Shown here piece after piece: positions 26,806 through 42,740 of a stretch of DNA of 64,000 nt (its first letter is position 1; every line of letters starts with the position of its first letter). Both the position numbers and the translations under genes were made by a program. Source of the stretch: Lentisphaerae bacterium GWF2_38_69. Its GTDB lineage: Bacteria > Verrucomicrobiota > Lentisphaeria > Victivallales > GWF2-38-69. The notes under the pieces were generated by a model. That model saw nothing but the letters and a program-made list of their open reading frames with translations. It was not told the origin of the DNA and ran no database searches. The stretch is taken from contig MHBE01000059.1 of NCBI GenBank assembly GCA_001803205.1, positions 1 to 64,000 of the forward strand. Direction: 5' to 3'.

Positions 26806-29800
26806 ATGGATTATTCTTCCATCAGAGACAATCATAAGAACGGAACAGTAGGAGATTTTCTCAAAAAAACTATTTCTACTAATTCTGAAGTCTCAATAGT
26901 TTCTGCCTACTTCACTATTTACGCCTACGGACAACTGAAAAATAATCTGGACAGTATTAAAAATCTTAAGTTCCTATTTGGCGAACCAAGATTTATAAAA
27001 TCTATGGATCCGGACAAAGTAAATACAAGAGATTTTCAAATTGAAGACGATAAGCTAACTATTCCGCTCGCTAGCAGACTTACACAGAAAAACATGGCTA
27101 GAGAATGTTCTGAATGGATTAATAATAAAACCGAGATTCGCTCAATGGTAAAACCCAATTTCTTACATGGAAAACTTTATCATGTCAGACAAGAGTGTGG
27201 AATAGAGAAAGCTATTGCCGGAAGCTCAAATTTTACTGTTAATGGCCTGGGTCTTGGCGGAAGCAAGAATATCGAACTTAATCTAATAATTGATAGTGAC
27301 AGAGACAGACAGGAACTGAAAGAATGGTTCGACTCTATTTGGAACGACAATACAGGACTTGTCGAAGATGTTAAAGATCAAGTCATAAAGTATCTTGAGC
27401 AATTATATGTAGAGAATGAGCCGGAATTCATTTATTTCAAAACACTTTATCACATTTTCGAGGAATACCTTAATGAGCAGAAAAAAGGTGGTTTATTAGA
27501 CGAGAAAACTGGATTTTATGATAGTGAAGTTTGGAATATGTTATATGCTTTCCAAAAAGATGGAGTCAAGGGGGCAATTAATAAGATATTAAAGCACAAC
27601 GGATGCATCATTGCTGACAGCGTAGGATTAGGCAAGACTTTCGAAGCTTTGGCTGTAATCAAATATTTCGAACTTCTCAATGCTCGTGTCCTTGTAGTTT
27701 GCCCTAAAAAACTAACCGGGAACTGGACTATATATCAGGCAAGCCAAAATCATTCATTAAACCCTTTCAAAAAAGATCGCTTCAACTACACAACATTATA
27801 CCATACGGATATGGGAAGAGAATCAGGCCGTTCTGACGCTAATGGTATAGACCTTGAAAACTTTAATTGGGCTGCATACGACCTTGTCGTTATTGACGAA
27901 TCTCATAATTTTCGCGGCAATCCCATGGATAAAGTAAAAGATGACGGCGAAATCAAGATGAACCGCGCAAAGTGGTTAATGGAAAAGGTTATAAAATCAG
28001 GAGTCAAAACAAAAGTTTTAATGTTGTCAGCCACTCCTGTAAATAATACCCTCCGCGATTTGAGGAATCAGATCTCTTTTATTACTGAAGGAAAGCCTGA
28101 TGCTCTTTATGAAAGTTGCAAAATAAAGGACATCGGACAGGCTCTGAAGAATGCTCAGACACACTTTACAAATTGGGCTGATCCCAAGAAGAACCCTCAA
28201 AGAAATATGAAACAGCTCCTAGAGAAGCTCGATTCATCTTTTTTTAAACTCCTGGATGAACTTACTATTGCCCGTTCCAGAAAGCATATAACAAGTTTTT
28301 ATCATCTTGATTCGGTAGGCAAGTTCCCTGCCAGGAATAAACCTCATTCGGTATATCCTGACATTGACCTTAAAAAGCGTTTTCCTTCATATGATAAAAT
28401 CAATAAGCAAATACTTGATTACAAGTTGTCGATATTCAATCCGTCAGCGTATGTGAAAATTGAAAAACAGAAGAAATATGAGGAAATGGCCGGGACTCAA
28501 GTCCTTGGGTTCAAACAAGCTGATCGTGAGTATTACCTGATCAATATGATGAAGGTTAATTATCTGAAACGCCTGGAAAGTTCCATAGAATCATTTGAGA
28601 TATCTCTCGAAAGAACCATTAAAAAAATAGAACAGCTTGAGGAAAAAATTGAAGCTTTCAAAGAACTTGGCAGCACTTCTCAGGAGGAAACATTAGAATC
28701 CTATACTCCCGGTGAAGAAGAGATTGATGACAATGGAGGAGATATTGAGGATTGGCAGGTAGGCAGGAAATTAAAATTTGATCTGGCTGATTTGGAACTG
28801 GGCAAATGGATAGAAGATTTAAAAAGAGACAAAGATGCCCTTATTACCCTCCTGAACAACGCGTGCGAAGTTACCCCGGAAAGAGATGCAAAACTTAAGG
28901 AATTGAAAAAGCTGATCCAGGCTAAAGCAGAAAATCCAATTAACTATTCGAATAAAAAAGTATTAGTATTTACTGCTTTTGCAGATACTGCCAAATATAT
29001 ATATGACAATATCAAAGAGTGGATCAGCAGTGAATTAGATCTTCATTCTGCTTTGGTTTGCGGCAGTTATACCCATACAACTTTAGGCAAGAATGACTAT
29101 GACAGCATATTAGTCAACTTCTCTCCCCTTTCAAAAAACCGCTCAAAGATGATTTCTGCCAATAAAACTCAAGAAATAGACATTCTTATAGCAACCGACT
29201 GTATCAGTGAAGGGCAGAATCTGCAGGATTGCGATTATTTAATCAACTATGATATACACTGGAATCCAGTCCGCATCATTCAGCGCTTTGGCCGTATAGA
29301 CCGATTAGGAAGTATTAATAAAACCATCCAGTTAGTCAACTTCTGGCCAACTAAAGACCTCGACAACTATATCAACCTGAAAGAGCGCGTCGAAGCCAGA
29401 ATGGCACTTGTAGATGTGACAGCTACAGGAGAAGATAATATACTTAATACCGAACAGATAGAGGAACTTATTACTGATGAACTTAAATACCGTAATCAAC
29501 AGTTAAAGAAGCTTAAAGAAGAAGTCCTGGATTTGGAAGAGATGAATGAATCTATTTCCCTTACTGACTTTACACTTGATGATTTCAGGGTTGAACTCTT
29601 AAACTTTATTGAAACCAACCGCCGCAGATTGAAGGATTCGCCTATGGGGCTTTATGCTGTAGTTCCGGCTCCGGGAGGAGACCATGTAGGACTGATAGCC
29701 AATAGAGATATTTCATCAAGCCAAAAAGAAATAATTAAGCCAGGTGTAATTTATTGTTTAGCACAAAAAGGGCAATCTGATGGCAATGAAGAGGTCAATC

Positions 29801-30144
29801 CTTTAAACCCGTATTTCCTTATTTATATCCGTAATGATGGAACAGTCCGATACAATTACACGAACGCAAAACAGATTTTGGAAATCTACCGTCTTTTATG
29901 CAATGGGAAAAAGGCTCCCTATGACGAACTCTGTACTTTGTTTAACGATGAGACAGCTAACGGCGAAAAGATGGGCAAATATTCTGATCTGCTAAAGAAG
30001 GCTGTTAATGAAATTGTGCATGTCTTTAAGAAGAAAAGTAACATCAAGCTGACCAGTGACCGCGGGGCTCTGCTGATACCGAAATCAAAACAGATTAATG
30101 AAATGGAAGATTTTGAACTTATAACATGGCTCGTGATAAAATAG
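26806..30144 (+). CDS. PLD-like nuclease/SNF2-type helicase fusion
   Basis: This 1112-residue protein has an N-terminal phospholipase-D-like domain (about 20-190) with FLHGKLYHV (H121, K123) and AGSSNFTVNG, and a superfamily-2 helicase: Walker A SVGLGKT (272-278), DESH box (364-367), LSATPVNNT (407-415), and motif VI QRFGRIDRLG (about 826-835). An acidic coiled-coil insert (about 600-690) separates the two RecA lobes. Such PLD-SNF2 proteins are common in restriction-modification and antiphage islands, where they are thought to translocate on and cut DNA. It opens the island, 105 bp after the Hsp70 gene. Confidence 0.9.
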   Translation: MDYSSIRDNHKNGTVGDFLKKTISTNSEVSIVSAYFTIYAYGQLKNNLDSIKNLKFLFGEPRFIKSMDPDKVNTRDFQIEDDKLTIPLASRLTQKNMARECSEWINNKTEIRSMVKPNFLHGKLYHVRQECGIEKAIAGSSNFTVNGLGLGGSKNIELNLIIDSDRDRQELKEWFDSIWNDNTGLVEDVKDQVIKYLEQLYVENEPEFIYFKTLYHIFEEYLNEQKKGGLLDEKTGFYDSEVWNMLYAFQKDGVKGAINKILKHNGCIIADSVGLGKTFEALAVIKYFELLNARVLVVCPKKLTGNWTIYQASQNHSLNPFKKDRFNYTTLYHTDMGRESGRSDANGIDLENFNWAAYDLVVIDESHNFRGNPMDKVKDDGEIKMNRAKWLMEKVIKSGVKTKVLMLSATPVNNTLRDLRNQISFITEGKPDALYESCKIKDIGQALKNAQTHFTNWADPKKNPQRNMKQLLEKLDSSFFKLLDELTIARSRKHITSFYHLDSVGKFPARNKPHSVYPDIDLKKRFPSYDKINKQILDYKLSIFNPSAYVKIEKQKKYEEMAGTQVLGFKQADREYYLINMMKVNYLKRLESSIESFEISLERTIKKIEQLEEKIEAFKELGSTSQEETLESYTPGEEEIDDNGGDIEDWQVGRKLKFDLADLELGKWIEDLKRDKDALITLLNNACEVTPERDAKLKELKKLIQAKAENPINYSNKKVLVFTAFADTAKYIYDNIKEWISSELDLHSALVCGSYTHTTLGKNDYDSILVNFSPLSKNRSKMISANKTQEIDILIATDCISEGQNLQDCDYLINYDIHWNPVRIIQRFGRIDRLGSINKTIQLVNFWPTKDLDNYINLKERVEARMALVDVTATGEDNILNTEQIEELITDELKYRNQQLKKLKEEVLDLEEMNESISLTDFTLDDFRVELLNFIETNRRRLKDSPMGLYAVVPAPGGDHVGLIANRDISSSQKEIIKPGVIYCLAQKGQSDGNEEVNPLNPYFLIYIRNDGTVRYNYTNAKQILEIYRLLCNGKKAPYDELCTLFNDETANGEKMGKYSDLLKKAVNEIVHVFKKKSNIKLTSDRGALLIPKSKQINEMEDFELITWLVIK

Positions 30145-30159
30145 TATTGGAGAATTGCG

Positions 30160-30200
30160 ATATACTTTGGAGTGCGACGATTCATCTTCGCATTGAAAAT
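30160..30200. repeat. Partial TTTGGAGTGC element
   Basis: ATACTTTGGAGTGCGACGAT followed by a CGACGA/TCTTCG-like stem matches the left end of the larger element at 31747-31833, without its right arm. It lies in the 87-bp leader of the next gene. Confidence 0.5.
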
Positions 30201-30231
30201 CTGAAACTTCAGAAAATAAAGAGCATACAAA

Positions 30232-31575
30232 ATGAATATTTTAAATAAAAACGAGTCCGACATGCTGGAGTTCAAAAGCCAGTGGAGCGAGGACTGCCTT
30301 AAAGCTGTTAGCTCTTTCGCAAACAGTAAAGGTGGAATTTTATATATCGGCATTGACGATAAGGGGCGGTCTGTAAAACTTCATAACTATGCCAAAGCCC
30401 TTGAAGACATTCCAAATACTATCAGGAATAAACTTGGCATCCTTCCGCTTGTTACATCTGAAAAACTCAATAGTGATATGGTCATAAAGATTGATGTCGC
30501 TCCTTCTTCAGTCCCGATATCCTTTAATGGCAAATTCTATATAAGAAGCGGCTCGACTGTTCAGGAATTGCAGGGAAAGCATCTTGCGGATTTTCTGATA
30601 AAAAAATCAGGTTTAACCTGGGATCAGATAGTGGAGGAGAGAGCAGATTTGAACAGCTTAAACCTTGAGACTATTGAGGATTTCAAGAGATTCTCGAAAG
30701 ACAGAATTCCATCTATATCGCAGGAAACTGATATCCGGATAATTCTGAGAAAGCTAAACCTTCTGAAAGACGGCGCTATAACAAGAGGAGCCGCACTTCT
30801 TTTCGGAAAAGAACCTCAGAAACTCTATATTCAGGCAATAGTTAAAATAGGCAAGTTTCTTTCTGAAACAGATATACAGACCACTGACATAGTGAAAGGC
30901 AACCTCTTTACTCAACTGGAAATGACTCTCGAAATTCTCAGGACAAAGTATCTGAAGAGCAATATACATTTCGAAGGCATTCACAGGCGGGAAATTCTCG
31001 AATACCCTTATGATGCGCTTAGAGAAGCAATCATTAACTCTCTTATCCATAGAGATTATCTCGGCACATCGCACATTCAAATAAGAGTTTACGATGACAA
31101 ACTTATAATTATGAACGAAGGAAAACTTCCGCCTGAAGTGCCTGTGGAAAAACTTAAAACCAATCACCTTTCAGTGCCGAGAAACTCTCTGCTTGCAGAA
31201 ACATTCTATCTTGCAGGATTCATTGAGTCTTGGGGCAGAGGAACAGTCAAGATTGTGGAAAAGTGCAGGGAACAGGGACTTCCTGAACCAGATTTCACAG
31301 AAGAAAACGGCGTCATGACAGCGACTTTTTACTGCAATAGATTAAATGAGAAAAAATTTATTGAGATGGGATTAAACAGCAGACAGGCCAAATTAATTTT
31401 ATATTTGAGGCAGCATGTAGAATCTGCTATTGCGGATTTATCTCAAGTCGCTGATGGAGTATCTATTAAAACAATCCAAAGAGATATGGATGAACTCTTC
31501 AAAAAGGGTTTTATTTCTTTCAAAGGAGAAAAAAAAGGAAGAAAATATTTTTTATCGGACATTTATCGGACATGA
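30232..31575 (+). CDS. AlbA_2 / HATPase ATP-binding protein of the island
   Basis: This 447-residue protein starts MNILNKNESDMLEFKSQWSE, with GGILYIGIDDKGR (AlbA_2 domain, about 1-115). The middle is a HATPase_c_4 domain (REAIINSLIHRDYLGTSHIQ and FIESWGRGTVKIVEKC), and a winged helix follows (about 385-440). It lies between the helicase and the methylase, so it is the candidate ATPase component of a helicase-ATPase-methylase system. Its last residues, FLSDIYRT, are encoded by the first of two 30-bp tandem units (31545-31603), so the repeat expansion reaches into the stop codon. Confidence 0.85.
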   Translation: MNILNKNESDMLEFKSQWSEDCLKAVSSFANSKGGILYIGIDDKGRSVKLHNYAKALEDIPNTIRNKLGILPLVTSEKLNSDMVIKIDVAPSSVPISFNGKFYIRSGSTVQELQGKHLADFLIKKSGLTWDQIVEERADLNSLNLETIEDFKRFSKDRIPSISQETDIRIILRKLNLLKDGAITRGAALLFGKEPQKLYIQAIVKIGKFLSETDIQTTDIVKGNLFTQLEMTLEILRTKYLKSNIHFEGIHRREILEYPYDALREAIINSLIHRDYLGTSHIQIRVYDDKLIIMNEGKLPPEVPVEKLKTNHLSVPRNSLLAETFYLAGFIESWGRGTVKIVEKCREQGLPEPDFTEENGVMTATFYCNRLNEKKFIEMGLNSRQAKLILYLRQHVESAIADLSQVADGVSIKTIQRDMDELFKKGFISFKGEKKGRKYFLSDIYRT

Positions 31576-31603
31576 TATTTTTTATCGGACATTTATCGGA
31601 CAT
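31545..31603. repeat. Two 29-bp units (30-bp period) of TTATCGGACAT words
   Basis: Each unit (31545-31573, 31575-31603) contains TTATCGGACAT twice, giving four copies in 59 bp. The first unit encodes the C-terminus of the AlbA protein and overlaps its TGA; the second lies outside the gene. Confidence 0.9.
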
Positions 31604-31746
31604 TCTGAATGGTTCAAACGGGCACCATAGGGGCATTGCACAATAATTGCACAATCAAAGTGGAACTGAATGATTAATATGAGGCTAATAATTGCACATT
31701 AATTGCACAATCAAACGGCTAAGGAAACAAACATGTATTGATATAG

Positions 31747-31833
31747 TTTGGAGTGCTATGGCTTGACATAGCTTTCAATACTCTGAGGCATGGCTCAGAT
31801 AAACAAAGCGTAAACAACTTTCCGCACTCCAAA
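31747..31833. repeat. Three-stem TTTGGAGTGC...GCACTCCAAA element
   Basis: The outer perfect 10-bp arms TTTGGAGTGC and GCACTCCAAA enclose GCTATG-gcttga-CATAGC (31755-31772) and CTGAG-gcatgg-CTCAG, plus a weak AAAG...CTTT arm. Folded as RNA it would form a cloverleaf-like junction. Confidence 0.8.
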
Positions 31834-31840
31834 ATTAAGG

Positions 31841-31907
31841 TAGCCACATGCGTAAGCGTGTGGTTTAGTGAGTAAAAACGAACAAAGCTCTCCTGAATGG
31901 AGTTGCG
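31841..31907. repeat. 67-bp structured direct repeat, copy 1
   Basis: Shares TAGCCACATGCGTAAGC, TGTGG, AAAAACGAACAAAGCT, TCCTGAA and GGAGTTGCG with 32090-32158. It holds the hairpins CCACATGC-gtaa-GCGTGTGG and CTCC-tgaat-GGAG. Confidence 0.8.
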
Positions 31908-31946
31908 GTAGAAATGGAGGGTTTTGCGCCGTCAAAACCGTTAACT

Positions 31947-32012
31947 AAACCCATCAAACTCGATGGGTTTAAAGATAAAATTATAATTAATTCCACCGAA
32001 TTCGATGGAATT
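31947..32012. repeat. Two hairpins of the CCATC...GATGG type
   Basis: AAACCCATC-aaactc-GATGGGTTT (31947-31970) is perfect. AATTCCAC-cgaattcg-ATGGAATT (31989-32012) is near-perfect and similar in layout. They sit 18 bp apart in the gap before the methylase gene. Confidence 0.75.
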
Positions 32013-32089
32013 TAAAAATAATAATATTGAAGAAATGATAATTTTAATTGCGGCGAATTAGCCATAATTAAAAGCTGATCTGGATTATA

Positions 32090-32158
32090 TAGCCACATGC
32101 GTAAGCTTGTGGATAAAATTATGCAAAAACGAACAAAGCTATCCTGAAGGGAGTTGCG
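32090..32158. repeat. 69-bp structured direct repeat, copy 2 (methylase leader)
   Basis: Second copy of the motif at 31841-31907 with a few substitutions (GTAAGCTTGTGG; ATCCTGAAGGGAG). It ends 32 bp before the methylase ATG and so probably lies in its 5' leader, where it could affect translation. Confidence 0.75.
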
Positions 32159-32190
32159 ACAGGAAAATAAGATTTATATAAGGTGAAACT

Positions 32191-35100
32191 ATGCCAGATC
32201 TAGATACGAAAATAGCCATACAAAACGCTCTGAAAGCCTTCTCTTCAGGAAGTCTCTCTGACAAAGCCATTTCTCTCTTCACTTCTCTTGGATATAACAC
32301 CGAACGGCATAATCCTTTTGACCAGAAAGATTACGCTTTCTTTAAAGAATCGTTTTTAGAAGGAAATACACGCTTCAATGAAGAGAAGGCATTAGTGAAG
32401 GAATGGAAATCTATTGACCTCTTATTCCAGCTCACACAGGAAGAGCTCTCAGCCCAGCAAAGTTTATTTGATACAAAGAAAGTTAACAATACCATAATTG
32501 AAACCTATCTCTTCTTTGCCATAGAACTCTCAAAAGCAGAATATTCCAGAACAGCATTGGCGCAGATAACCCGTGAAATTAACAAAGTCTTTCCGATGCC
32601 GGCAATGATTCTTTTCAAACACGGTTCACACCTGACTTTATCAGTGATAAACCGACGACTGCATAAAAGAGACGAACAAAAAGATGTTCTGGAAAAGGTA
32701 ACGCTCATCAAGGACATTTCGATACTCAATCCACACAGAGCGCATATTGAAATACTTTTCGACTTATCATTTCATGAGTTACTGCGCATTCACAGATTTA
32801 CTAACTTCGTCGAACTTCACAATGCCTGGCAGAAGACTCTCGATACTAAAGAGCTTAACAAGAGATTTTACCGCGAACTCTCCAACTGGTATTTTTGGGC
32901 GATCAGAACCGTTTCATTTCCTAATGATGCTGAAAATGACAAAGATGACACGGTTTTCAATTCTGAAAGCGTCATTAGATTGCTTACAAGGCTTATTTTT
33001 ATCTGGTTTATCAAGGAAAAGAATCTTGTTCCTGAAATGATATTCGGTCATAAAAAAATTTCATCGATTATCAAAGGGTTTATGCAGGACGGCTCAAATG
33101 TTTATTATCGTGCTATTCTTCAAAATCTATTCTTCGGTACTTTGAACCAGAAAATTGAGGATAGAGGTTTTGCAGTTGAAGGAAATCTAGCCCAAAATGC
33201 AAAAAACTACGGCGTTAAAACTCTCTACCGCTATGCCTCTGATTTCCAGATTCCAAAAGAAGAGGTTGTCAAACTCTTCAAAGGCGTGCCGTTTCTTAAT
33301 GGCGGGCTTTTTGATTGTCTGGATAACGAAGACAGCAGTTGCAAAGTCTTGTATCTGGACGGATTTTCCCGTAATCCCAAAAAGCAGGCAAATGTGCCTG
33401 ACGAACTCTTCTTCTCCGACGAAAGAACTATAGACCTGAGCGAAATCTATGATGACAAAAAGAAGAAAAATGAAAAGGTAAAAGGCCTCTTTGAAATATT
33501 TAACAGCTATAAGTTTACCATAACAGAAAATACTCCGATAGAAGAGGAAATAGCACTTGACCCCGAACTCCTCGGCAGAGTTTTTGAAAACCTCCTGGCA
33601 AGCTATAACCCGGAAACCAAAACCACCGCCCGTAAACAAACAGGAAGCTTCTATACTCCGAGAGAGATCGTCAACTACATGGTGGATGAATCCTTAATTG
33701 CTTACTTTAAAGCTAGACTTCTTTCAGAATTGCCGGGATATGAAGAACTTGCCGACAGGCAGTTAAAACTTTTCAGTAGCAGTGAACTTTCTAATCAGCC
33801 AAAATTTGAAATGAAACTCGATGAAAGCTCCTGGAACGGCAAAGAAGAAGAACTTGAAACTGAACTCAGAAATTTGCTCTCTTATTCAGAAACAGAGTCA
33901 AAATTCTCACAGTCAGATAAAGACAAACTAATTGAAGCCATCGATAACTGCAAAATCCTTGACCCTGCCTGCGGTTCAGGTGCTTTCCCGATGGGCATCC
34001 TCCACAAACTCGTCCATGTCCTGCATAAACTCGACCCGCAGAATAAGGGATGGGAAGAACGGCAGATAAGGAAAGCATCGCTGATTGATGATCCTACTAT
34101 CCGTGACAAACTGATTGCTGACATTGAAACAGCCTTCAGCAATAATGAACTAGACTACGGCAGAAAACTCTATCTTATTGAAAACTGCATCTACGGCGTG
34201 GACATCCAGCCCATTGCAACTCAGATAAGCAAACTGCGCTTCTTTATCTCTCTAATCGTTGACCAGAAAACAGATAAAAACAAAGATAATTTCGGTATCA
34301 GAAGTTTGCCAAACCTCGAAACAAAGTTTGTCGCAGCAAATACTTTGATAGACTTGCCTGAAGTTGGTCTTTACAATCATAATGTTGAAGAACTCGCAAA
34401 AGAATTAAAAAACACTCGTCATAATATTTTTAGTGCTAAAACAGCATATGATAAAAAGAAATTGCGAGATGAAGATAGAAAAATCAGGGAGCAAATAAAA
34501 TCGGAACTCCTTAGCGGTGGATGGGATGAAAAAAGTTCCACTCTTATTGCTAAATGGGATCCTTATAACCAGAATGCCAGTTGTTCATGGTTCAATCCCG
34601 AATGGATGTTCGGCATCAGAGACGGCTTCGATATCGTTATCGGCAATCCGCCGTATATGATAATTCAAACATTAACTGAAGCTTTTCCTGAACTCGTCCC
34701 TTACTATAAAAACTCTTATGCCTCTGCTACTGGAAAGTTTGATATTTATTGTCTATTTATTGAGAAAGGCATATTGATGCTAAGACATGACGGAATTCTC
34801 AATTATATCGTGCCTAACAAATGGACTGTTGCAAAGTTTGGATTTGGTCTTCGAAAATTAATTTCTGAGAAAAAATCTTTATATAAACTAATATCTTTTA
34901 ATGATTATCAAGTATTCAATGCTTCAACATATTCTTCACTTATTTGGTTATCTAAGACATCACATAACTTTGCTTCTTTTGCAAGTTTAGATAAAGATTT
35001 ATCTGATTCCCGTGAATTAGATTTATGGTTAGACAACCTGTTCAATTCTATTAATACTGTGATAGATAATTCAAAATTATCAGATAATCCATGGATACTG

Positions 35101-36153
35101 GGAAATGAAAATGAAACAAATATTGTCAAAGTAATTAATAAACATCCACATATTGAAAGATTTCTTGAAGGAATTTTTCAAGGAATAGTTACCGGCGATA
35201 ATGATATTTTTTGGCTGTATGATTGCATAGTAAGCGATTATTATGTTAAGGGTTATTCTAAAGCACTTCAGCAAAAAGTAGAAATAGAAAAAGAAGTCAT
35301 ATACCCTTTCTTAAATGGCAGAACTATTGGAAGATATAAAAATAATTTTGATAGTACTTTTTTAATTTATCCATATAGAACCCAATCAAATAAAACTGTC
35401 ATCATTCCAGAAGATGATTTAAAGCTTGAATACCCCAACTTGTATAAATATTTTATATCCCTCAAAGGCAGATTAGAAAACCGTGGTTCCGAATCAATGA
35501 TTTACCCTTGCTGGTACTCTTTATGGAATTTTAGAAACATAAATAAATTGGCAGCAAAGAATAAAATATTAACTCCTGATGTTTGCCAACACGGCAGTAT
35601 GTGGAATGATATATATGGCAATTATTTTCATTCCGATACTACATATTCAATCATAGTCAAAGATAGCTTTTTACATATAATTCCTTCTCTGTATGCTATT
35701 CTAAACTCCCAGTTATGTTGGTTTTATTTGCAGCAAACAAGTTCTATTCAAAGAGGAGGGTTTTTTAGGTTTAAAACTTCATATTTAAAACCTTTCCCAA
35801 TTCCTGATATAATAGATGAATTCAATAGTAAACTCTCTAAGCTAGTAAATATTATTGAATTCCTTACACAAAAGGAAGATAGAAATAAATGGGTTACCTT
35901 TATTGAAGGCTTTATCAATAGTTTGGTTTACGCGCTTTACTTTCCTGAACAAGTCAAAGCGGCTAATGCAGAAGTTCTAAAGCATCTGACCAATCTGCCT
36001 GAAATCAAAGAAGATTGGAGCGACGAGAAGAAACTGAAAGTCATCGAGAAGGTTTATCAGGAGTTATCCGATCCGAATCACCCTGTTTCAATCGCCATGG
36101 AACGACAGAAATCTGTCCCGGAAATCCGCATCATCGAAGGCCTGGGAAAATAA
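32191..36153 (+). CDS. Eco57I-type DNA methyltransferase / Type IIG-like restriction protein
   Basis: This 1320-residue protein has a helical N-terminal region (about 1-480), QTGSFYTPREIVNYMVDESL (about 480), the SAM-binding motif DPACGSG (591-597), a central helical part, and catalytic motif IV NPPY (819-822), which predicts N6-adenine methylation. The C-terminal about 450 residues resemble target-recognition regions (FLNGRTIGRY; SIQRGGFFRFKTSYLKPFPI). I could not pick out a PD-(D/E)xK nuclease site, so whether it also cuts is open. The last residues, VSIAMERQKSVPEIRIIEGL, recur as fragments at two later gene junctions. Shine-Dalgarno AAGGTG. Confidence 0.9.
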   Translation: MPDLDTKIAIQNALKAFSSGSLSDKAISLFTSLGYNTERHNPFDQKDYAFFKESFLEGNTRFNEEKALVKEWKSIDLLFQLTQEELSAQQSLFDTKKVNNTIIETYLFFAIELSKAEYSRTALAQITREINKVFPMPAMILFKHGSHLTLSVINRRLHKRDEQKDVLEKVTLIKDISILNPHRAHIEILFDLSFHELLRIHRFTNFVELHNAWQKTLDTKELNKRFYRELSNWYFWAIRTVSFPNDAENDKDDTVFNSESVIRLLTRLIFIWFIKEKNLVPEMIFGHKKISSIIKGFMQDGSNVYYRAILQNLFFGTLNQKIEDRGFAVEGNLAQNAKNYGVKTLYRYASDFQIPKEEVVKLFKGVPFLNGGLFDCLDNEDSSCKVLYLDGFSRNPKKQANVPDELFFSDERTIDLSEIYDDKKKKNEKVKGLFEIFNSYKFTITENTPIEEEIALDPELLGRVFENLLASYNPETKTTARKQTGSFYTPREIVNYMVDESLIAYFKARLLSELPGYEELADRQLKLFSSSELSNQPKFEMKLDESSWNGKEEELETELRNLLSYSETESKFSQSDKDKLIEAIDNCKILDPACGSGAFPMGILHKLVHVLHKLDPQNKGWEERQIRKASLIDDPTIRDKLIADIETAFSNNELDYGRKLYLIENCIYGVDIQPIATQISKLRFFISLIVDQKTDKNKDNFGIRSLPNLETKFVAANTLIDLPEVGLYNHNVEELAKELKNTRHNIFSAKTAYDKKKLRDEDRKIREQIKSELLSGGWDEKSSTLIAKWDPYNQNASCSWFNPEWMFGIRDGFDIVIGNPPYMIIQTLTEAFPELVPYYKNSYASATGKFDIYCLFIEKGILMLRHDGILNYIVPNKWTVAKFGFGLRKLISEKKSLYKLISFNDYQVFNASTYSSLIWLSKTSHNFASFASLDKDLSDSRELDLWLDNLFNSINTVIDNSKLSDNPWILGNENETNIVKVINKHPHIERFLEGIFQGIVTGDNDIFWLYDCIVSDYYVKGYSKALQQKVEIEKEVIYPFLNGRTIGRYKNNFDSTFLIYPYRTQSNKTVIIPEDDLKLEYPNLYKYFISLKGRLENRGSESMIYPCWYSLWNFRNINKLAAKNKILTPDVCQHGSMWNDIYGNYFHSDTTYSIIVKDSFLHIIPSLYAILNSQLCWFYLQQTSSIQRGGFFRFKTSYLKPFPIPDIIDEFNSKLSKLVNIIEFLTQKEDRNKWVTFIEGFINSLVYALYFPEQVKAANAEVLKHLTNLPEIKEDWSDEKKLKVIEKVYQELSDPNHPVSIAMERQKSVPEIRIIEGLGK

Positions 36154-36165
36154 GGAATATGAAGA

Positions 36166-37302
36166 ATGAACGATAATAAACATATTGAAATGAAATTTGA
36201 GAATCTTTTACAGCTTTTTGAACAGACTCAGACTGAAATGCGCAGACAGGCCGCCAGGTCTGTGGACATAGCCTTAGTGGTGCGCAACTGGCTCTTCGGA
36301 TGGTATATAGTAGAGTTTGAAAATGCCGGAGCTGAGAGGATTGATCTTTATGGGAAACAACTTATGAAGAATCTTGCCGATAAACTTACAAGTAGGCTGG
36401 GAAAAGGTTTTTCCAAACGCTCATTGGAGCTTTACCGGCTTTTCTTCATGAACTATAAAGAGATTACGCAGACAGTGTCTGCCCAATCTTTATCGCTCAT
36501 AAATCATTGCATTCAAGATAGTTTACCCATTGCTCCAATTTCCTTCAAGCCCGAAGAATTGATGAAATACTTCAAACTGGGTTGGTCTCACTATGTAACT
36601 CTTATTACAATACGAAATAGTGAAGAAAGAAGATTCTATGAGATAGAAGCTATTGAAAACAACTGGAGCGTCAGAGAACTTCAAAGGCAGCTAGAGTCTT
36701 CGCTTTACGAAAGGCTTGCTTTAAGCAGAGATAAGAGAAAAATAAAAGAGTTGTCTGAAAAAGGACAAGTTGTTGGTTTTGCTGAAGATATAATTAAGAA
36801 TCCATACATATTGGAATTCCTCAATCTCCCTGAGCATCCACATTATTCTAAACACGAACTGGAAACAGCTATAATTGACAAGATAGAACACTTTTTGCTG
36901 GAGCTTGGAAAGGGGTTTCTTTTTGAAGCCAGACAGAAAAGGTTTACTTTAGATGACGATCATTTTTATGTAGATCTGGTTTTCTATAACAGGCTGCTTC
37001 GGTGTTATGTACTCATTGACTTGAAAAAGGATAAGCTGACACATCAAGATTTAGGCCAAATGCAGATGTATGTAAATTATTTTGACAGGTTTGTAAAGAA
37101 AGACTATGAGAATCCTACTATCGGTATTCTTCTCTGCCACAGGAAAAATGACGCTCTTGTAGAACTGACTCTTCCTGAAAAATCCAATATCCGCGCATCT
37201 GAGTATCAGCTTTATCTGCCAAGTAAGGATGAATTAAAAAAACAGCTTGAAGATATACAAAAAGACTTGACTGAAGAGAAAAAGCATGATGCAACTTCCT
37301 GA
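36166..37302 (+). CDS. DUF1016/YhcG-type PD-(D/E)xK nuclease
   Basis: This 378-residue protein has the DUF1016 N-terminal helical domain (about 1-190, with WYIVEFENAG, LGKGFSKRSLELYRLFF and WSVRELQRQLESSLYERLAL). The C-terminal PD-(D/E)xK-like nuclease domain (about 200-350) has FYVDLVFYNRLLRCYVLIDL, D270 and then D285-L-K287; most relatives have E-L-K. Proteins of this type are frequent next to methylases in restriction and defence loci. It starts 12 bp after the methylase. Its end overlaps a 15-codon echo of the methylase tail (37289-37333). Confidence 0.85.
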   Translation: MNDNKHIEMKFENLLQLFEQTQTEMRRQAARSVDIALVVRNWLFGWYIVEFENAGAERIDLYGKQLMKNLADKLTSRLGKGFSKRSLELYRLFFMNYKEITQTVSAQSLSLINHCIQDSLPIAPISFKPEELMKYFKLGWSHYVTLITIRNSEERRFYEIEAIENNWSVRELQRQLESSLYERLALSRDKRKIKELSEKGQVVGFAEDIIKNPYILEFLNLPEHPHYSKHELETAIIDKIEHFLLELGKGFLFEARQKRFTLDDDHFYVDLVFYNRLLRCYVLIDLKKDKLTHQDLGQMQMYVNYFDRFVKKDYENPTIGILLCHRKNDALVELTLPEKSNIRASEYQLYLPSKDELKKQLEDIQKDLTEEKKHDATS

Positions 37303-37333
37303 AGTGCGCATCGTCGAAGGCCTGGATAAGTAA
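37289..37333 (+). pseudogene. Methylase C-terminal tail echo 1
   Basis: In a frame different from the DUF1016 gene, ATG 37289 to TAA 37333 reads MQLPEVRIVEGLDK. This matches the real methylase end VPEIRIIEGLGK (ending 36153) in 8 of its last 12 residues. It is followed by AGGAGCAAAAAATTTATGAA, the ribosome binding site and start of the next gene, very similar to the sequence after echo 2. Confidence 0.75.
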
Positions 37334-37348
37334 AGGAGCAAAAAATTT

Positions 37349-39001
37349 ATGAATACAGATAATTTGAAAAAACTATTGGAAGAGCTGCTCTCTCAAACAA
37401 CTGAAGCTCAATGGTTGGAGTTAAAGAAAGATTTATCCGGGAAGTATGAAGAAACCGGCAAGTATATTTCGGCTTTGTCCAATGGAGCAACAATATCGAA
37501 TAAAGATTTTGCTTATCTTGTTTTTGGGATTGAAGACTCGACGCATAAGATTCTGGGGACAAAATTCAGGCCGTCCATCGAAAAGATAGGGAATCAGGAT
37601 TTTGAACTGTGGCTTAGAAGCATGATTAATCCGAAGATTCATTTTGAGATATTTGATTTTGATAGCGATGGCAAAAGAGTTGTCCTTTTCCGTATCCCAA
37701 AAGCAATGGGAGAACCTACATATTTTCAGTCAAAGGCTTATGTGAGAGTCGGAAGCCATACTACTGATCTTGTGAATTATCCTCCCCAACTGCAGAAAAT
37801 ATATAATTCACTTGAGGACTGGTCTGCAAAAACTATTCCTGATGCGTCTGTAAAAGATTTGGATCCTGATGCTTTGAAAATTGCAAGAGAAAAATTTAAA
37901 GAGAAATCTGTAAATGAAGCATTCTATAAGAATATTGATAGATGGGACAATATAACTCTTCTTGATAAAGCAAGAATTACAATTAATGGGAAGATAACAA
38001 ATACAGCCATAATCTTGTTGGGTAAGCCGGAATCTTCTCACTACTTGCTTCCTTCAATAGCTGAAATAACTTGGAAACTAGAAACTGAAGAAAAAGCCTA
38101 CGAACATTTTGGCCTGCCGTTGCTTCTGAATACGACAAAGCTTCTAAACAGAATCCGCAATATAAAGTACAAATTCTTCCCTGACAACGAATTGATTTCA
38201 ATAGAAGTGAACAAATATGAAACAAGAGTCATACTTGAAGCACTGCATAACGCAATAGCCCATCAGGACTACAGTTTGAACTCAAGAATTGTTGTAACTG
38301 AAAAGATTGACAGATTAAGCTTTACTAATGCAGGTTCATTTTTTGAAGGTTCCCCTGAAGATTATTTTTTAGGAAACAGGACGCCTCAAAGATATCGAAA
38401 TCCATGGCTTGCTCATTCTATGGTAAACCTTAACATGATTGACACTGTCGGTTATGGGATTCATACAATGTTTCTGGAGCAGCGCAAAAGATTTTTCCCT
38501 CTGCCCGATTATTCTAAATCTCAGAATAATCGCGTTGTGCTTGAGATATACGGGCACTGTATTGATGAAAATTACTCTAAATTGCTGATGGAAAGGAAAG
38601 AGGAGCTTAGTTTGACGACAGTTCTATTGCTCGATCGCATCCAGAAGAAGTTGCCTGTAAATGAAAAAGAGGCGCTCTTGCTTAAAAAAGATAACCTCAT
38701 TGAAGGAAGGAGGCCGAATTATTTTGTCTCTGCCAAAATAGCCGATGCTACAGGAAAGATGGAAGAGTATGTAAGGTATAAGGCCTTTAATGATAAATAC
38801 TACAAGGATTTAATCTGTGAGTTCGTAAGAAAACAAGGATACGCAAAAAAGTCAGAAATTGCCACGCTTGTTTATGACAAGTTATCTGATTCCCTTAGCG
38901 CTAAACAGAAAACGCATAAAATCCAAAATTTATTACAAGCACTTAGAAAAGAAGGTATTATTTATCCTGATGGAAAAATATGGAAAGTTAAAAATAGCTA
39001 A
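37349..39001 (+). CDS. AlbA_2 / HATPase ATP-binding protein, longer form
   Basis: This 550-residue protein has an AlbA_2 domain (about 15-150: TEAQWLELKKDLSGKYEETG, KDFAYLVFGIEDSTHKILGT), a HATPase-like region (about 280-400: ALHNAIAHQDYSLNSRIVVT; MIDTVGYGIHTMFLEQRKR) and a C-terminal winged helix (about 480-547). It follows a methylase-tail echo and a strong AAGGAG Shine-Dalgarno. The stop codon is followed at once by five 10-bp repeats. Likely an accessory regulator of a restriction cassette; the exact role is unknown. Confidence 0.82.
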   Translation: MNTDNLKKLLEELLSQTTEAQWLELKKDLSGKYEETGKYISALSNGATISNKDFAYLVFGIEDSTHKILGTKFRPSIEKIGNQDFELWLRSMINPKIHFEIFDFDSDGKRVVLFRIPKAMGEPTYFQSKAYVRVGSHTTDLVNYPPQLQKIYNSLEDWSAKTIPDASVKDLDPDALKIAREKFKEKSVNEAFYKNIDRWDNITLLDKARITINGKITNTAIILLGKPESSHYLLPSIAEITWKLETEEKAYEHFGLPLLLNTTKLLNRIRNIKYKFFPDNELISIEVNKYETRVILEALHNAIAHQDYSLNSRIVVTEKIDRLSFTNAGSFFEGSPEDYFLGNRTPQRYRNPWLAHSMVNLNMIDTVGYGIHTMFLEQRKRFFPLPDYSKSQNNRVVLEIYGHCIDENYSKLLMERKEELSLTTVLLLDRIQKKLPVNEKEALLLKKDNLIEGRRPNYFVSAKIADATGKMEEYVRYKAFNDKYYKDLICEFVRKQGYAKKSEIATLVYDKLSDSLSAKQKTHKIQNLLQALRKEGIIYPDGKIWKVKNS

Positions 39002-39050
39002 TTTATACATTTTTATACATTTTTATACATTTTTATACATTTTTATACAT
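39001..39050. repeat. Five 10-bp tandem repeats after an AlbA gene
   Basis: Unit TTTTATACAT repeats five times (first unit ATTTATACAT), starting in the stop codon of the AlbA gene. The period of about one DNA turn would put all units on one face of the helix, as expected for cooperative protein binding. Confidence 0.95.
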
Positions 39051-39151
39051 TTGCCCCCCACAATGGCGGCACAATAAAAGTGTTTAGTTATCAAGGAAAT
39101 ATCAATTGTGACAATAAAATCATATGCAAAGAGGAAGGAGGTAAGGAATTT

Positions 39152-39262
39152 ATGAATGAAGAAAGTTTAGTAGTATTTGAGAACGGAAATTTCGAAGATA
39201 TTATCAGCCTGATTATTATCTATTCTTATATGGTTATAAAAAGGAAATGCAGTCATGAATGA
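39152..39262 (+). CDS. Small ORF of 36 residues, unrecognised
   Basis: MNEESLVVFENGNFEDIISL and then IIIYSYMVIKRKCSHE, preceded by a strong AAGGAGGT Shine-Dalgarno about 8 bases upstream, and overlapping the start of the next gene by 8 bp. The first 12 residues resemble starts of Bro-N or RhuM-type proteins, so it may be the stub of a larger accessory gene rather than a functional peptide. No function is proposed. Confidence 0.35.
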   Translation: MNEESLVVFENGNFEDIISLIIIYSYMVIKRKCSHE

Positions 39263-39945
39263 AACAAATATATTTGAGAAAAAATCACTTAAGTATGTGA
39301 TTGGCAAGTCTGCAGACTGGAATGAACTAGCAAAAGACTGGGTAGGAATGGCGAACGCTCGCGGCGGTATCATAGCTCTGGGAATTGAAAACGAAGATAC
39401 TCAACCTCCTCCTGATCAAAAGATAGATAAAGAATTGCCTGGAAAGGTTAATAAGCGCATATCAGAGCTTACTATCAATGTCGGAGTAGCATCTCAAATC
39501 ATATTGTCTGAAAATGGTGGTGAGTATATTGAAGTAAAAGTTTATCCCAGCATAAGCACAATAGCCTCAACCACAGACGGCAAATATTATTATCGCATAG
39601 CCGATGGATGCAAACCCCTGCTCTCGGATGAACTAAGTCGTTTGCTCAATGACAAACCGTCATTTATATGGGAAACAAGAATTGTAAAATCTGCCAAAAG
39701 AAATGACTATAACGCGAACAAATTTGAAGCAAATTGAGAAACATAGGCTCAAGGAACTAATCTATCAGGATATAAAAACATATCCTAATAGCTCTATTAG
39801 TGAAATAAATGATAGAATTGGAAAAGAAATAGCGTCAAGAAAGATAAAGTCGATGATAGATAATATGACTTCTAATAAAGAAATTGAGGCTATTGGACAA
39901 AACCGTTGGAGGGAATATTCTATCAACAAACAGGGCGTGAAATAA
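39255..39945 (+). pseudogene. AlbA_2 protein gene broken by internal deletion
   Basis: Reading frame one (39255-39737, 160 residues) is a good AlbA_2 N-terminus: FEKKSLKYVIGKSADWNELA then KDWVGMANARGGIIALGIEN. Frame two (39703-39945) reads EKHRLKELIYQDIKTYPNSS and ends RWREYSINKQGVK, the winged-helix C-terminus expected at the far end of the same kind of protein. The HATPase middle of about 250 residues is missing and the two parts are in different frames. The parsimonious reading is one gene that lost its centre. A truncated AlbA_2 protein might still be made. Confidence 0.7.
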
Positions 39946-40005
39946 AAGAGGTTTTGTTGATAGAATGTCGATAGGAAATGTTGATAGAATTAAAAATTAT
40001 CAGTA

Positions 40006-40137
40006 ATGCCTCTGACAAAAAAAGAATTTGAGATTATTAAACAGAAGGGTTCAGCTACTCCATATCCTGTTTCAATAGCCATGGAAAGGCAGAAATCTAT
40101 CCCTGAATTGCGCATCATTGAAGAACTGAATAAATAA
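40006..40137 (+). pseudogene. Methylase C-terminal tail echo 2
   Basis: ATG 40006 to TAA 40137 gives 43 residues whose second half, PVSIAMERQKSIPELRIIEE, then LNK, aligns directly with the methylase end PVSIAMERQKSVPEIRIIEG, LGK. The first 18 residues (MPLTKKEFEIIKQKGSAT) do not match that region. It is followed by GGAGCAAGAAACTTATGAAT leading into a truncated DUF1016 gene. I read it as the leftover 3' end of a second methylase gene. Confidence 0.8.
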
Positions 40138-40151
40138 GGAGCAAGAAACTT

Positions 40152-40655
40152 ATGAATGTTATAAAGCAGTCTTATGAAAATCTTACTCAGCAGATAGGCG
40201 AACTTCTCAGAAAAGGGCGCGAACAGGCAGGAAGAGCTGTTAATACCATATTGGTTCAAACCTATTGGCAGATAGGAAGGCATATTGTTGAGTTTGAGCA
40301 ATCAGGCAAAGAGAAAGCTGAGTACGGTTCAAACCTCCTTGACAGGCTTTCAAAGGATTTAACTCTCTATTATGGAAAAGGTTTCAGCAGGTCAAACTTG
40401 TTTCAAATACGGCAATTTTACCTAAAGTTTCCAAAAATCCAGACACTGTCTGGACAATTGACATGGAGCCATTATAACGAAATTTTAAAAGCAGACGATG
40501 AGCTTGAGATTGGCTTTTACTCCCGTCAATGTGAGAAAGAGAATTGGAGTGTCAGAGAACTCAGACGGCAGATGAAAAGCATGCTTTCTCACAGACTTGC
40601 ATTGAGTAAGGACAAAGAGGGCGTAATGGAGCTTGCCGAAAAAGGAGCGGAATGA
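40152..40655 (+). pseudogene. DUF1016 protein truncated before its nuclease domain
   Basis: The 167-residue product has a full DUF1016 N-terminal domain (GRAVNTILVQTYWQIGRHIV, YGKGFSRSNLFQIRQFYLKF, NWSVRELRRQMKSMLSHRLA) but stops after LSKDKEGVMELAEKGAE, where relatives continue into the PD-(D/E)xK nuclease. The two other DUF1016 genes in the window (36166 and 41645) keep that domain. It may be nonfunctional, or act as a stand-alone N-domain. Confidence 0.75.
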
Positions 40656-40680
40656 TATCAACAAAACACAAAGAGAATAA

Positions 40681-40827
40681 TCAACAACAAGCATCGAACG
40701 CCTGGAATATCTGTTTAAACTCTATGAACAGATGGTTGATGAAGAAAAAGAAAGGACAGGAAAATTGAATCCTGAACCAATCAAAACCAAAAAGAAAAAT
40801 CACAATGAGCGATATAAAATTATTTGA
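40681..40827 (+). pseudogene. Unrecognised gene fragment
   Basis: Between the truncated DUF1016 gene and the DinD-like gene a stop-free frame reads SIERLEYLFKLYEQMVDEEK and continues to KLNPEPIKTKKKNHNERYKI. It has no start and overlaps the next gene by 23 bp. It looks like the C-terminal tail of a larger protein lost by deletion; I do not recognise the family. Confidence 0.35.
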
Positions 40828-41635
40828 AGAAAAAAAAGTACGCAGGTATTGGGATTCAGAAAAAGAAATATGGTATTTCAGTATCACAGACATCGTGTCC
40901 ATTCTTACTGAAAGCAAAGACCCTTTAGCCTATTGGCGTAAGTTAAAGGAACGCCTCAAACAGGAAGGAAATGAAACCGTGACGAATTGTCACGCTTTGA
41001 AAATGGTTGCCGCTGACGGAAAAATGCGCTTAACTGATGTTGCTAATACAGAGCAGCTTCTTCGCCTCATTCAATCCATACCATCACCCAAAGCAGAACC
41101 CTTCAAACAATGGCTTGCAAAAGTAGGACATGAACGAATGCAGGAAATAGCCGACCCGGAACGAAGCCTCGATAGAGCAAGGGAAAATTGGCAGAAACTG
41201 GGGCGTAGTGGAAAATGGATTCAACAGCGCATGACGGGGCAGGAAACTCGTAATAAACTTACTGATTACTGGAAACAAAGCGGAGTAGAAAAATCAGATG
41301 AATTTGCCTTGCTCACCAATATTATCCATCAGGAATGGACAGGTCTAACAGTAAAGAAGCATAAGGACTTAAAAAACTTAAAATCACAAAACCTAAGAGA
41401 CCACATGAATGAAGCCGAACTTATCTTTACGGCATTAGCAGAGTTATCTACGCGCCAAATAGCCGAAACAGAAGAAGCAACAGGGTTAACAGAAAATGCA
41501 AAAGCAAGTAAAAAAGGCGGAGCCATTGCCAAGGATGCGCGATTGGCATTAGAAGCAAAAACCGGCAAGAATGTAGTGACAGGAGAGAACTTTTTACCGC
41601 CTGCGAAAGAGAAAAAGCAAATTGAACACAAATAG
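40805..41635 (+). CDS. DinD-like protein with Bro-N antirepressor domain
   Basis: This 276-residue protein has an N-terminal Bro-N domain (about 1-110: VRRYWDSEKEIWYFSITDIV, followed by SILTESKDPLAYWRKLK). The C-terminal part shares the DinD pattern (EFALLTNIIHQEWTGLTVKK, NLRDHMNEAELIFTALAELS, then KASKKGGAIAKDARLALEAK). DinD of enteric bacteria is a DNA-damage-induced protein that acts on RecA filaments; Bro-N forms are common in phages and next to restriction genes. Role here: possible SOS- or phage-linked regulator of the island. It ends 9 bp before the next DUF1016 gene. Confidence 0.82.
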   Translation: MSDIKLFEEKKVRRYWDSEKEIWYFSITDIVSILTESKDPLAYWRKLKERLKQEGNETVTNCHALKMVAADGKMRLTDVANTEQLLRLIQSIPSPKAEPFKQWLAKVGHERMQEIADPERSLDRARENWQKLGRSGKWIQQRMTGQETRNKLTDYWKQSGVEKSDEFALLTNIIHQEWTGLTVKKHKDLKNLKSQNLRDHMNEAELIFTALAELSTRQIAETEEATGLTENAKASKKGGAIAKDARLALEAKTGKNVVTGENFLPPAKEKKQIEHK

Positions 41636-41644
41636 GAAAAGTAA

Positions 41645-42670
41645 ATGAGAGAGAATCTTTTAGACTCTGCTGGTTATGCAAATTGGCTCAAAGAAATAAA
41701 AGAGCGAATAAGGATAGCTCGTCAAAAAGTGGCTCTGGCTGCCAATAGTGAACTTATAAGTTTTTATTGGGATTTGGGAAAAATGATGGAAAAGCTATCT
41801 GCTAGTGCCTTATGGGGTAAAAATTGGATTGAAGCTTTGTCGAAAGATTTGCAAGATGAGTTTCCTGACATGGAGGGGTTTTCAAAGACCAACTTATACA
41901 ATATCAAAAGGTTATACCAGTTTTACAAAGACGATGTATTTTCCCACCAGGCTGGTGGAAAAATACCATGGCGGCATCATGTAGAGATATTCACTAAAGC
42001 TAAATCGATGGAAGAAGCTCACTTTTACATCAAAGAAACAATAGAAAGTGGTTGGGGGCGGGAAGTTTTGGCTTTGCAAATCAAATCACAGTTATACCAA
42101 AGGCAGGGCAAATCCATTAGTAACTTCAAAAAGACTCTGCCCGAACCTCTCTCAGATTTGGCTCAACAGACCTTAAAAGACCCCTATGTATTTGATTTTT
42201 TAACGATGACCAAGCCCTTTCATGAAAAAGATATCGAACAGCAATTGATCAATCATATAACCAAGTTTTTACTGGAATTGGGGAAAGGTTTTGCTTTTAT
42301 AGGCAAGCAATTTCATCTGATGGTGGGAGAAACCGATTATTACATAGATTTACTCTTTTATCATACCAAACTGAAATGCTATGTGGCAATAGAGCTTAAA
42401 AATACCAAATTTATCCCCGAGTATGCAGGAAAGCTGAACTTTTATCTTTCTGCGGTTGATAGTTTAATAAAACAAGATGACGATAAGCCTACCATTGGCA
42501 TATTGCTGTGTAGAGATAAAAATAATTTTGAAACTGAATTTGCTTTAAGGGATATTCATAAACCAATGGGTGTAAGCGAATTCAAGTTGACAGAAATATT
42601 ACCAGAGGAATTAAAATCAAGCTTGCCAAGCATCGAAGAAATTGAAAGCGAACTAAAGAAGTTAGAATAA
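41645..42670 (+). CDS. DUF1016/YhcG-type PD-(D/E)xK nuclease, intact
   Basis: This 341-residue protein has a DUF1016 N-domain (IRIARQKVALAANSELISFY; MEGFSKTNLYNIKRLYQFYK) and a C-terminal nuclease domain with D235 (YYIDLLFYHTKLKCYVAIEL) and E250-x-K252, the full PD-(D/E)xK signature. It is diverged from the copy at 36166, so the two are probably separate acquisitions, not a recent duplication. It is the last intact gene of the island. Confidence 0.87.
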   Translation: MRENLLDSAGYANWLKEIKERIRIARQKVALAANSELISFYWDLGKMMEKLSASALWGKNWIEALSKDLQDEFPDMEGFSKTNLYNIKRLYQFYKDDVFSHQAGGKIPWRHHVEIFTKAKSMEEAHFYIKETIESGWGREVLALQIKSQLYQRQGKSISNFKKTLPEPLSDLAQQTLKDPYVFDFLTMTKPFHEKDIEQQLINHITKFLLELGKGFAFIGKQFHLMVGETDYYIDLLFYHTKLKCYVAIELKNTKFIPEYAGKLNFYLSAVDSLIKQDDDKPTIGILLCRDKNNFETEFALRDIHKPMGVSEFKLTEILPEELKSSLPSIEEIESELKKLE

Positions 42671-42671
42671 T

Positions 42672-42740
42672 ATGCCGGACATAGTACATGTGACATACGC
42701 TCAAACAGGGCAAAGCTCTAAAACCAATTGCCTTGGATAA
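42672..42740 (+). pseudogene. N-terminal stub of a DEAD-box helicase/restriction protein
   Basis: ATG 42672 to TAA 42740 reads MPDIVHVTYAQTGQSSKTNC, then LG and stop. The 'TYxQTGxSxKTNxLG' start is, as I recall, that of large DEAD/DEAH helicases in restriction loci, which normally continue with a 'MREMQ' segment and a Walker A. Here only 22 codons remain, one base after the DUF1016 stop, so the gene was cut and the break marks the right edge of the island. Confidence 0.6.

Follow-up and report, generated by a model that had tools for sequence, protein, structure and literature searches.

Methylase gene ends ahead of accessory genes in a defence island of Lentisphaerae bacterium GWF2_38_69: candidate traces of C-terminal displacement

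The gain and retention of unrelated genes in defence islands has so far been described mostly statistically. Here we ask why the 3' end of a DNA methylase gene recurs at two later gene junctions of one such island, each time a few nucleotides ahead of an accessory gene or what is left of it. The island lies in a stretch of 64,000 nucleotides of Lentisphaerae bacterium GWF2_38_69 (assembly GCA_001803205.1, contig MHBE01000059.1, positions 1 to 64,000 of the forward strand), hereafter called the window. It occupies positions 26806-42740 and is flanked by ordinary chromosomal genes, HSP70-related on the left and a vitamin transporter on the right. The order of its genes is a PLD-SNF2 helicase, AlbA0, the methylase (hereafter M), DUF1016a, AlbA1, an AlbA2 relic, a DUF1016b relic, Bro-N and DUF1016c (Table 1). 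We suggest, with a probability of roughly 0.6, that the two echoes of the methylase end are orphaned 3' ends of earlier, diverged methylases, and that the island grows by stepwise C-terminal displacement.

Echoes of the methylase end in the window

The final 36 nt of M (36118-36153) recur at 37298-37333 (echo 1) and 40102-40137 (echo 2), and re-reading of the sequence confirmed the three positions and readings given in an earlier note on this DNA. A 27-nt pattern of the tail, with up to 3 mismatches allowed, matches only at 36118, 37298 and 40102 and in none of 100 shuffles; very weak tail copies elsewhere in the source genome could have escaped detection. Echo 1 is 81% identical to the end of M over 36 nt. 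It comprises 12 codons only, and its identification rests on its position, its leader and a profile score of 4.5e-4. It is out of frame with DUF1016a, the stop codon of which (37300-37302) falls inside it. Echo 2 matches the end of M at 83% over 75 nt (E 2e-15). The nearly identical leader that the note had described after both echoes is also found: tail and leader are common over 57 nt (37298-37354 and 40102-40157; 82%, E 6e-9), and the next gene starts 14-15 nt behind each tail. The leader of M itself differs from both. An accessory gene had been reported behind each echo, and AlbA1 does follow echo 1; the DUF1016 gene behind echo 2 is truncated to its N-terminal domain.

M has both an Eco57I catalytic domain and a TaqI-like C-terminal specificity domain (Pfam). 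It is 67% identical to the methylase of locus L025 in the last 60 residues, yet approximately 30% in the target-recognition part. Among 388 genomes of the phylum, the tails match nothing but methylases and their relics, one marginal match aside. Comparing M with a tail on a second contig of the same genome (C42, described below) gave 5 synonymous changes and 1 non-synonymous change in 20 codons (p 0.005). Since the tails differ largely at synonymous sites, they probably diverged while part of working genes, and would not be copies of the present end of M. Chance similarity of the tails is ruled out by the shuffles and by their recurrence across other contigs and genomes. An assembly artefact is unlikely, since separate genomes share these relics at 75-97% identity.

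Methylase tails in other islands and genomes

The genome has a second island on contig C42 (locus L023), encoding another PLD-SNF2 helicase, AlbA, AAA_15, DUF3226, DUF6577 and AbiEii. This island carries three orphan methylase tails of different subfamilies, each preceding another accessory gene or relic. The parent of the methylase N-terminus that precedes the first tail was identified by synteny with locus L029. This N-terminus matches the L029 methylase (score above all 1000 shuffles), which stands intact behind a helicase 60% identical to that of C42. One of the missing methylase bodies, for which a search by synteny had been proposed, is thereby explained, C42 keeping the N-terminus beside the tail. 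A plasmid search with the same N-terminus gave no match. The module of approximately 215 nt that ends in echo 2 (39920-40137, with its upstream repeat array) has a second copy at C42:56374-56588 (83% over 207 nt, E 2e-52). Its borders are sharp, and the genes flanking the two copies are unrelated on both sides.

In a genome of the sister genus (G001, contig C8, locus L050), AlbA1 is 87% and Bro-N 97% identical to the genes of the window. In G001 just 3 nt separate AlbA1 from the intact methylase in front of it, which shares only 27% identity with M, and the DNA block common to both genomes (37328-39031, 84.7%) starts within the last codons of echo 1. As AlbA1 is kept and the methylase upstream of it is different in G001, the partner that changed is the methylase and not AlbA1. 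The earlier note had it the other way around, with an accessory gene that changes and a methylase that is kept; this is wrong for a locus in which AlbA1 and Bro-N are near-constant. Its expectation that the same or related methylases would be found with different accessory genes was borne out: DUF1016 in the window, AlbA in G001 (with a different methylase), two genes, one of them AAA-like, in genome G289 and a 290-aa protein in genome G144. The proposed stacking or exchange at the methylase tail is supported in part, by the specificity for methylases, the variety of accessory genes and the methylase body explained by synteny. The tails are diverged ends of several methylases rather than of the present one.

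A similar scatter is seen for the ends of other methylase families (MmeI-type and LYGLTKEE-type) and for helicase gene 5' ends. An MmeI-type relic is common to G001 and the window, where it lies ahead of Bro-N. In G001 an MmeI_C relic (Pfam 2e-9) overlaps the start of a gene denoted DUF1016' by ATGA, and a tail (AMETQKIVPEVRIIEGLET) is located directly 3' of the same gene. The 5' end of a DEAD/DEAH helicase gene (PDIVHVTYAQTGQSSKTN; the assignment is taken from plasmid records) is present three times in the G001 island and once at the right edge of the window island. The G001 copies (L050 3079-3202, 1568-1691 and 26-288, approximate) are overlapping repeats of 90-263 nt that are 94-97% identical, indicating that exchange within that island is recent. 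The peptide end VYRALCRLVWNRISKA recurs at further junctions in both genomes (L023 10690-10760; L068 9962-10022 and 8812-8858).

The helicase closest to that of the window (69% identity) is found in L026, from a Bacteroidales metagenome-assembled genome, where a gene other than AlbA occupies the interval between helicase and methylase. The L026 methylase tracks M to approximately residue 930 and is unrelated from there on. A frameshifted relic of the tail type seen in the window and L025 lies 125-305 nt 3' of its stop codon (E 3e-11 to L025). The L026 methylase has a swapped C-terminus, and the old one was displaced, its tail persisting 140 nt downstream, and not removed.

Origin of the methylase tails

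Based on these observations, we propose that incoming DNA would anchor by homologous recombination in the conserved methylase body or in its neighbours. It would supply its own accessory gene together with a new methylase 3' part, comprising target-recognition domain and tail, and its other side would be joined illegitimately, close to the end of the old methylase. The old tail would stay before the old accessory gene, both being pushed downstream, and further rounds would line up accessory genes one after another, each behind a short methylase tail. The tail is probably retained because the start signals of the next gene are close beside it or overlap with it, as in the ATGA overlaps of C42 tail 2 and of the MmeI relic in G001; this would amount to translational coupling. 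In favor of displacement, tails of several subfamilies precede different accessory genes on the same strand. Orphan anchor-gene 3' ends are found downstream and point the same way (echoes 1 and 2, the three C42 tails, those of G001 and L026, and the MmeI_C relics). The anchor combines a conserved 5' part with a swapped 3' part, as seen from L026 and M with a break near residue 930. A retained gene is found behind an intact anchor elsewhere, namely AlbA1 in G001 (one pair only).

The same junctions could have arisen by plain decay, if complete methylase-accessory operons once stood side by side and the methylase bodies were later deleted, the ends being kept for expression of the downstream genes. 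Both C42 (6343-6538) and contig C94 of G001 retain a methylase N-terminus after the same helicase-AlbA pair, and the AlbA2 relic has both its ends and has lost the middle, as decay would predict. However, no methylase 5' end precedes echo 1 or the tails of G001 and L026, which adjoin either a DUF1016 gene 3' end or a new C-terminus of a methylase, and no relative with tandem complete operons was seen among the loci examined. We therefore consider decay a possible but rather unlikely history. An insertion of DUF1016a at the methylase end, duplicating the last approximately 36 nt, would be a simple way to obtain the tail-DUF1016a-tail arrangement, and AlbA does stand directly behind a methylase in G001. 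The copies flanking DUF1016a are just 81% identical, though, which speaks against direct repeats derived from one target. Such an insertion is improbable also because other junctions carry the ends of other methylase families, which the end of M itself cannot yield.

If the tail were instead the DNA site of a recombinase that stacks accessory genes, similar to an integron or attachment site, one would expect tails at many junctions on the same strand, and a module shared by two islands with unrelated flanks, both of which are observed. No integrase, resolvase or transposase domain was found in the Pfam-scanned genes of the island and its immediate neighbours, whereas an integron would have an integrase gene and conserved attC-like sites. 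The tails also vary at synonymous positions, preserving the peptide rather than the DNA, and methylase families of unrelated sequence behave alike, which makes a recombinase site very unlikely. It is likewise hard to believe that the 43-aa open reading frame (ORF) finishing in echo 2 is a working small gene, such as a leader peptide or antitoxin, conserved before accessory genes. The ORF is open in both copies of the module and its leader is 87% identical between them, but beyond the source genome it was not found in 137 genomes of the order, plasmids or viral contigs. Pfam, NCBIfam and PADLOC assign it to no family. Its first 20 codons have 3 synonymous and 8 non-synonymous changes, a pattern to be expected if the protein is under no constraint. 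No viral relatives were found for the methylase or AlbA1 either.

It should be noted that several points weigh against displacement. What is seen are its presumed products, from which we infer the order of events, the one-sided homologous and illegitimate joining, and the retention by translational coupling. For none of the window junctions was a donor or a strain predating the event encountered, nor parental sequences in which micro-homology at the joints would show; the nearest genome compared is from another genus. The codon test reached significance in only one of three tail pairs. The C42 scar, in which a methylase N-terminus is joined to a tail, looks like a plain internal deletion, and some relics fit such a deletion as well. 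The scattered helicase 5' ends (PDIVHVTYAQ) would require extra deletions.

We tentatively raise the possibility that accessory defence genes generally enter at the 3' end of R-M methylase genes, giving ordered arrays in defence islands, across several methylase families and phyla, in which each gene is labelled by the tail of the methylase it came with. Orphan methylase tails would directly mark individual acquisitions and could reveal their order. They would also tell which accessory gene belonged to which methylase, and would explain short spurious ORFs at the junctions of defence genes.

Comparison with known systems

C-terminal displacement is known from Rhs genes and type VI effector-immunity arrays (Vibrio cholerae, PMC5361080), and the combination of homologous recombination on one side with illegitimate joining has been measured (PMC3240628). 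Like the islands described here, the Rhs and type VI secretion system arrays combine a conserved 5' part with a 3' part that can be replaced, followed by a series of orphaned genes with displaced 3'-end remnants; homology-facilitated illegitimate recombination was proposed for them (PMC5361080). Unlike in those arrays, the anchor here is the DNA methylase of a restriction-modification (R-M)-like system, the accessory defence genes are varied and several methylase families are involved. Recombination likewise swaps target-recognition parts of R-M systems by domain movement and exchange of target-recognition domains in Helicobacter (PMC3077401). There the shuffling takes place inside S and type IIG genes via repeats, whereas here the old C-terminal ends remain with the downstream genes.

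For some mobile R-M genes, insertion with long target duplication has been put forward (Nobusato et al. 2000, cited in PMC3077401). In that model duplicated gene ends flank the inserted segment, which is also the case here; the flanking copies in our islands, in contrast, are diverged and trace to at least two methylase families. M and the helicase match the families of systems that combine a type IIG-like/Eco57I-TaqI_C methylase with a PLD-SNF2 helicase. Unlike in that type, the accessory genes (AlbA, DUF1016 and Bro-N) vary in number and position.

Other features of the island

Table 1. Features of the window island and related loci (window positions unless a locus is named; wHTH, winged helix-turn-helix; HTH, helix-turn-helix)
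Feature	Position	Strand	Remarks
PLD-nuclease and SNF2 helicase	26806..30144	+	Core gene of R-M-like system; Pfam PLDc_2, SNF2-rel_dom, Helicase_C
AlbA0	30232..31575	+	SLFN_AlbA_2, HATPase_c_4 and HTH; then short repeat arrays (31545-31715)
M, Eco57I/TaqI_C-type methylase	32191..36153	+	PF07669 6.6e-39, PF12950 2.4e-9; intact tail PVSIAMERQKSVPEIRIIEGLGK at 36082-36150
DUF1016a	36166..37302	+	DUF1016_N and YhcG_C PDDEXK nuclease; 3' end extends into echo 1
Echo 1, orphan methylase tail LPEVRIVEGLDK	37298..37333	+	Directly ahead of AlbA1; profile E 4.5e-4
AlbA1	37349..39001	+	SLFN_AlbA_2 and HATPase_c_4, wHTH-like end
Array of TTTATACATT x5	39002..39052	+	Immediately 3' of AlbA1; TTTAGATATT x3 at the corresponding place in G001
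AlbA2 relic	39255..39945	+	AlbA_2 domain 5', wHTH-like 3' end out of frame, middle gone
Duplicated junction module	39920..40137	+	AlbA2 end, TTGATAGA repeats and 43-aa ORF finishing in echo 2
Echo 2, orphan methylase tail PVSIAMERQKSIPELRIIEELNK	40066..40137	+	C-terminal half of 43-aa ORF (40006-40137)
DUF1016b relic	40152..40655	+	DUF1016_N 6e-47 alone; no YhcG_C nuclease domain (Pfam)
MmeI-type methylase 3'-end relic (ERLEYLFKLYEQM...)	40687..40804	+	Directly ahead of Bro-N; 92% DNA match to G001 relic
Bro-N family gene	40805..41635	+	97% identical in sister genus
DUF1016c	41645..42670	+	Complete; Pfam
DEAD/DEAH helicase relic (MPDIVHVTYAQTGQSSKTN)	42672..42740	+	First ~22 codons; island edge
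C42 tail 1 LTPEEIRIIEGVDK	L023 6497-6538		Ahead of AAA_15; preceded by 46 codons of methylase N-terminus
C42 tail 2 PVSITMERQKSVPEIRIIEGTSK	ends L023 8592		Stop overlaps DUF6577/AbiEii start (ATGA); second copy of 215-nt module
C42 tail 3 LYGLTKEETEFIKNYEIE	L023 ~10604-10657		E 2e-6 to L026 methylase end; then apparently two gene stubs
Repeat arrays after AlbA_2 genes	39002-39052, 31545-31715, 39955-39990; L090 9297-9360; L050 3290-3343; L089, L126, L112		

DUF1016a is 38% identical to the DUF1016 gene of L025, which is located upstream of the methylase there. Between AlbA0 and the start of M lie two direct repeats of approximately 68 nt (31841-31907 and 32090-32158, 84%). The high identity of Bro-N across two genera in which its neighbours differ points to either recent transfer or strong constraint.

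Genes of the AlbA_2 type often carry gene-specific direct-repeat arrays, with units of approximately 10-20 nt, right after the stop codon; the units include TTTATACATT, TTTAGATATT, TTTATGAGTA, TTTATCGGACA and TTGATAGA. At least 4 copies of a 9-mer within 150 nt downstream were found for 7 of 46 AlbA genes and 4 of 270 other genes (p 2e-4), and the same count upstream of AlbA genes gave no excess. The conserved leader of echo 2 resembles such an array. In the case of RptR, an R-M island is known to be controlled through direct-repeat operators (PMC12255303), which hints at a regulatory role for the AlbA arrays, possibly as operators for the C-terminal winged helix. In the AlbA gene of C42 (L023 4911-6380), a 12-nt repeat in frame (VEAQ x4) immediately precedes the winged-helix part.

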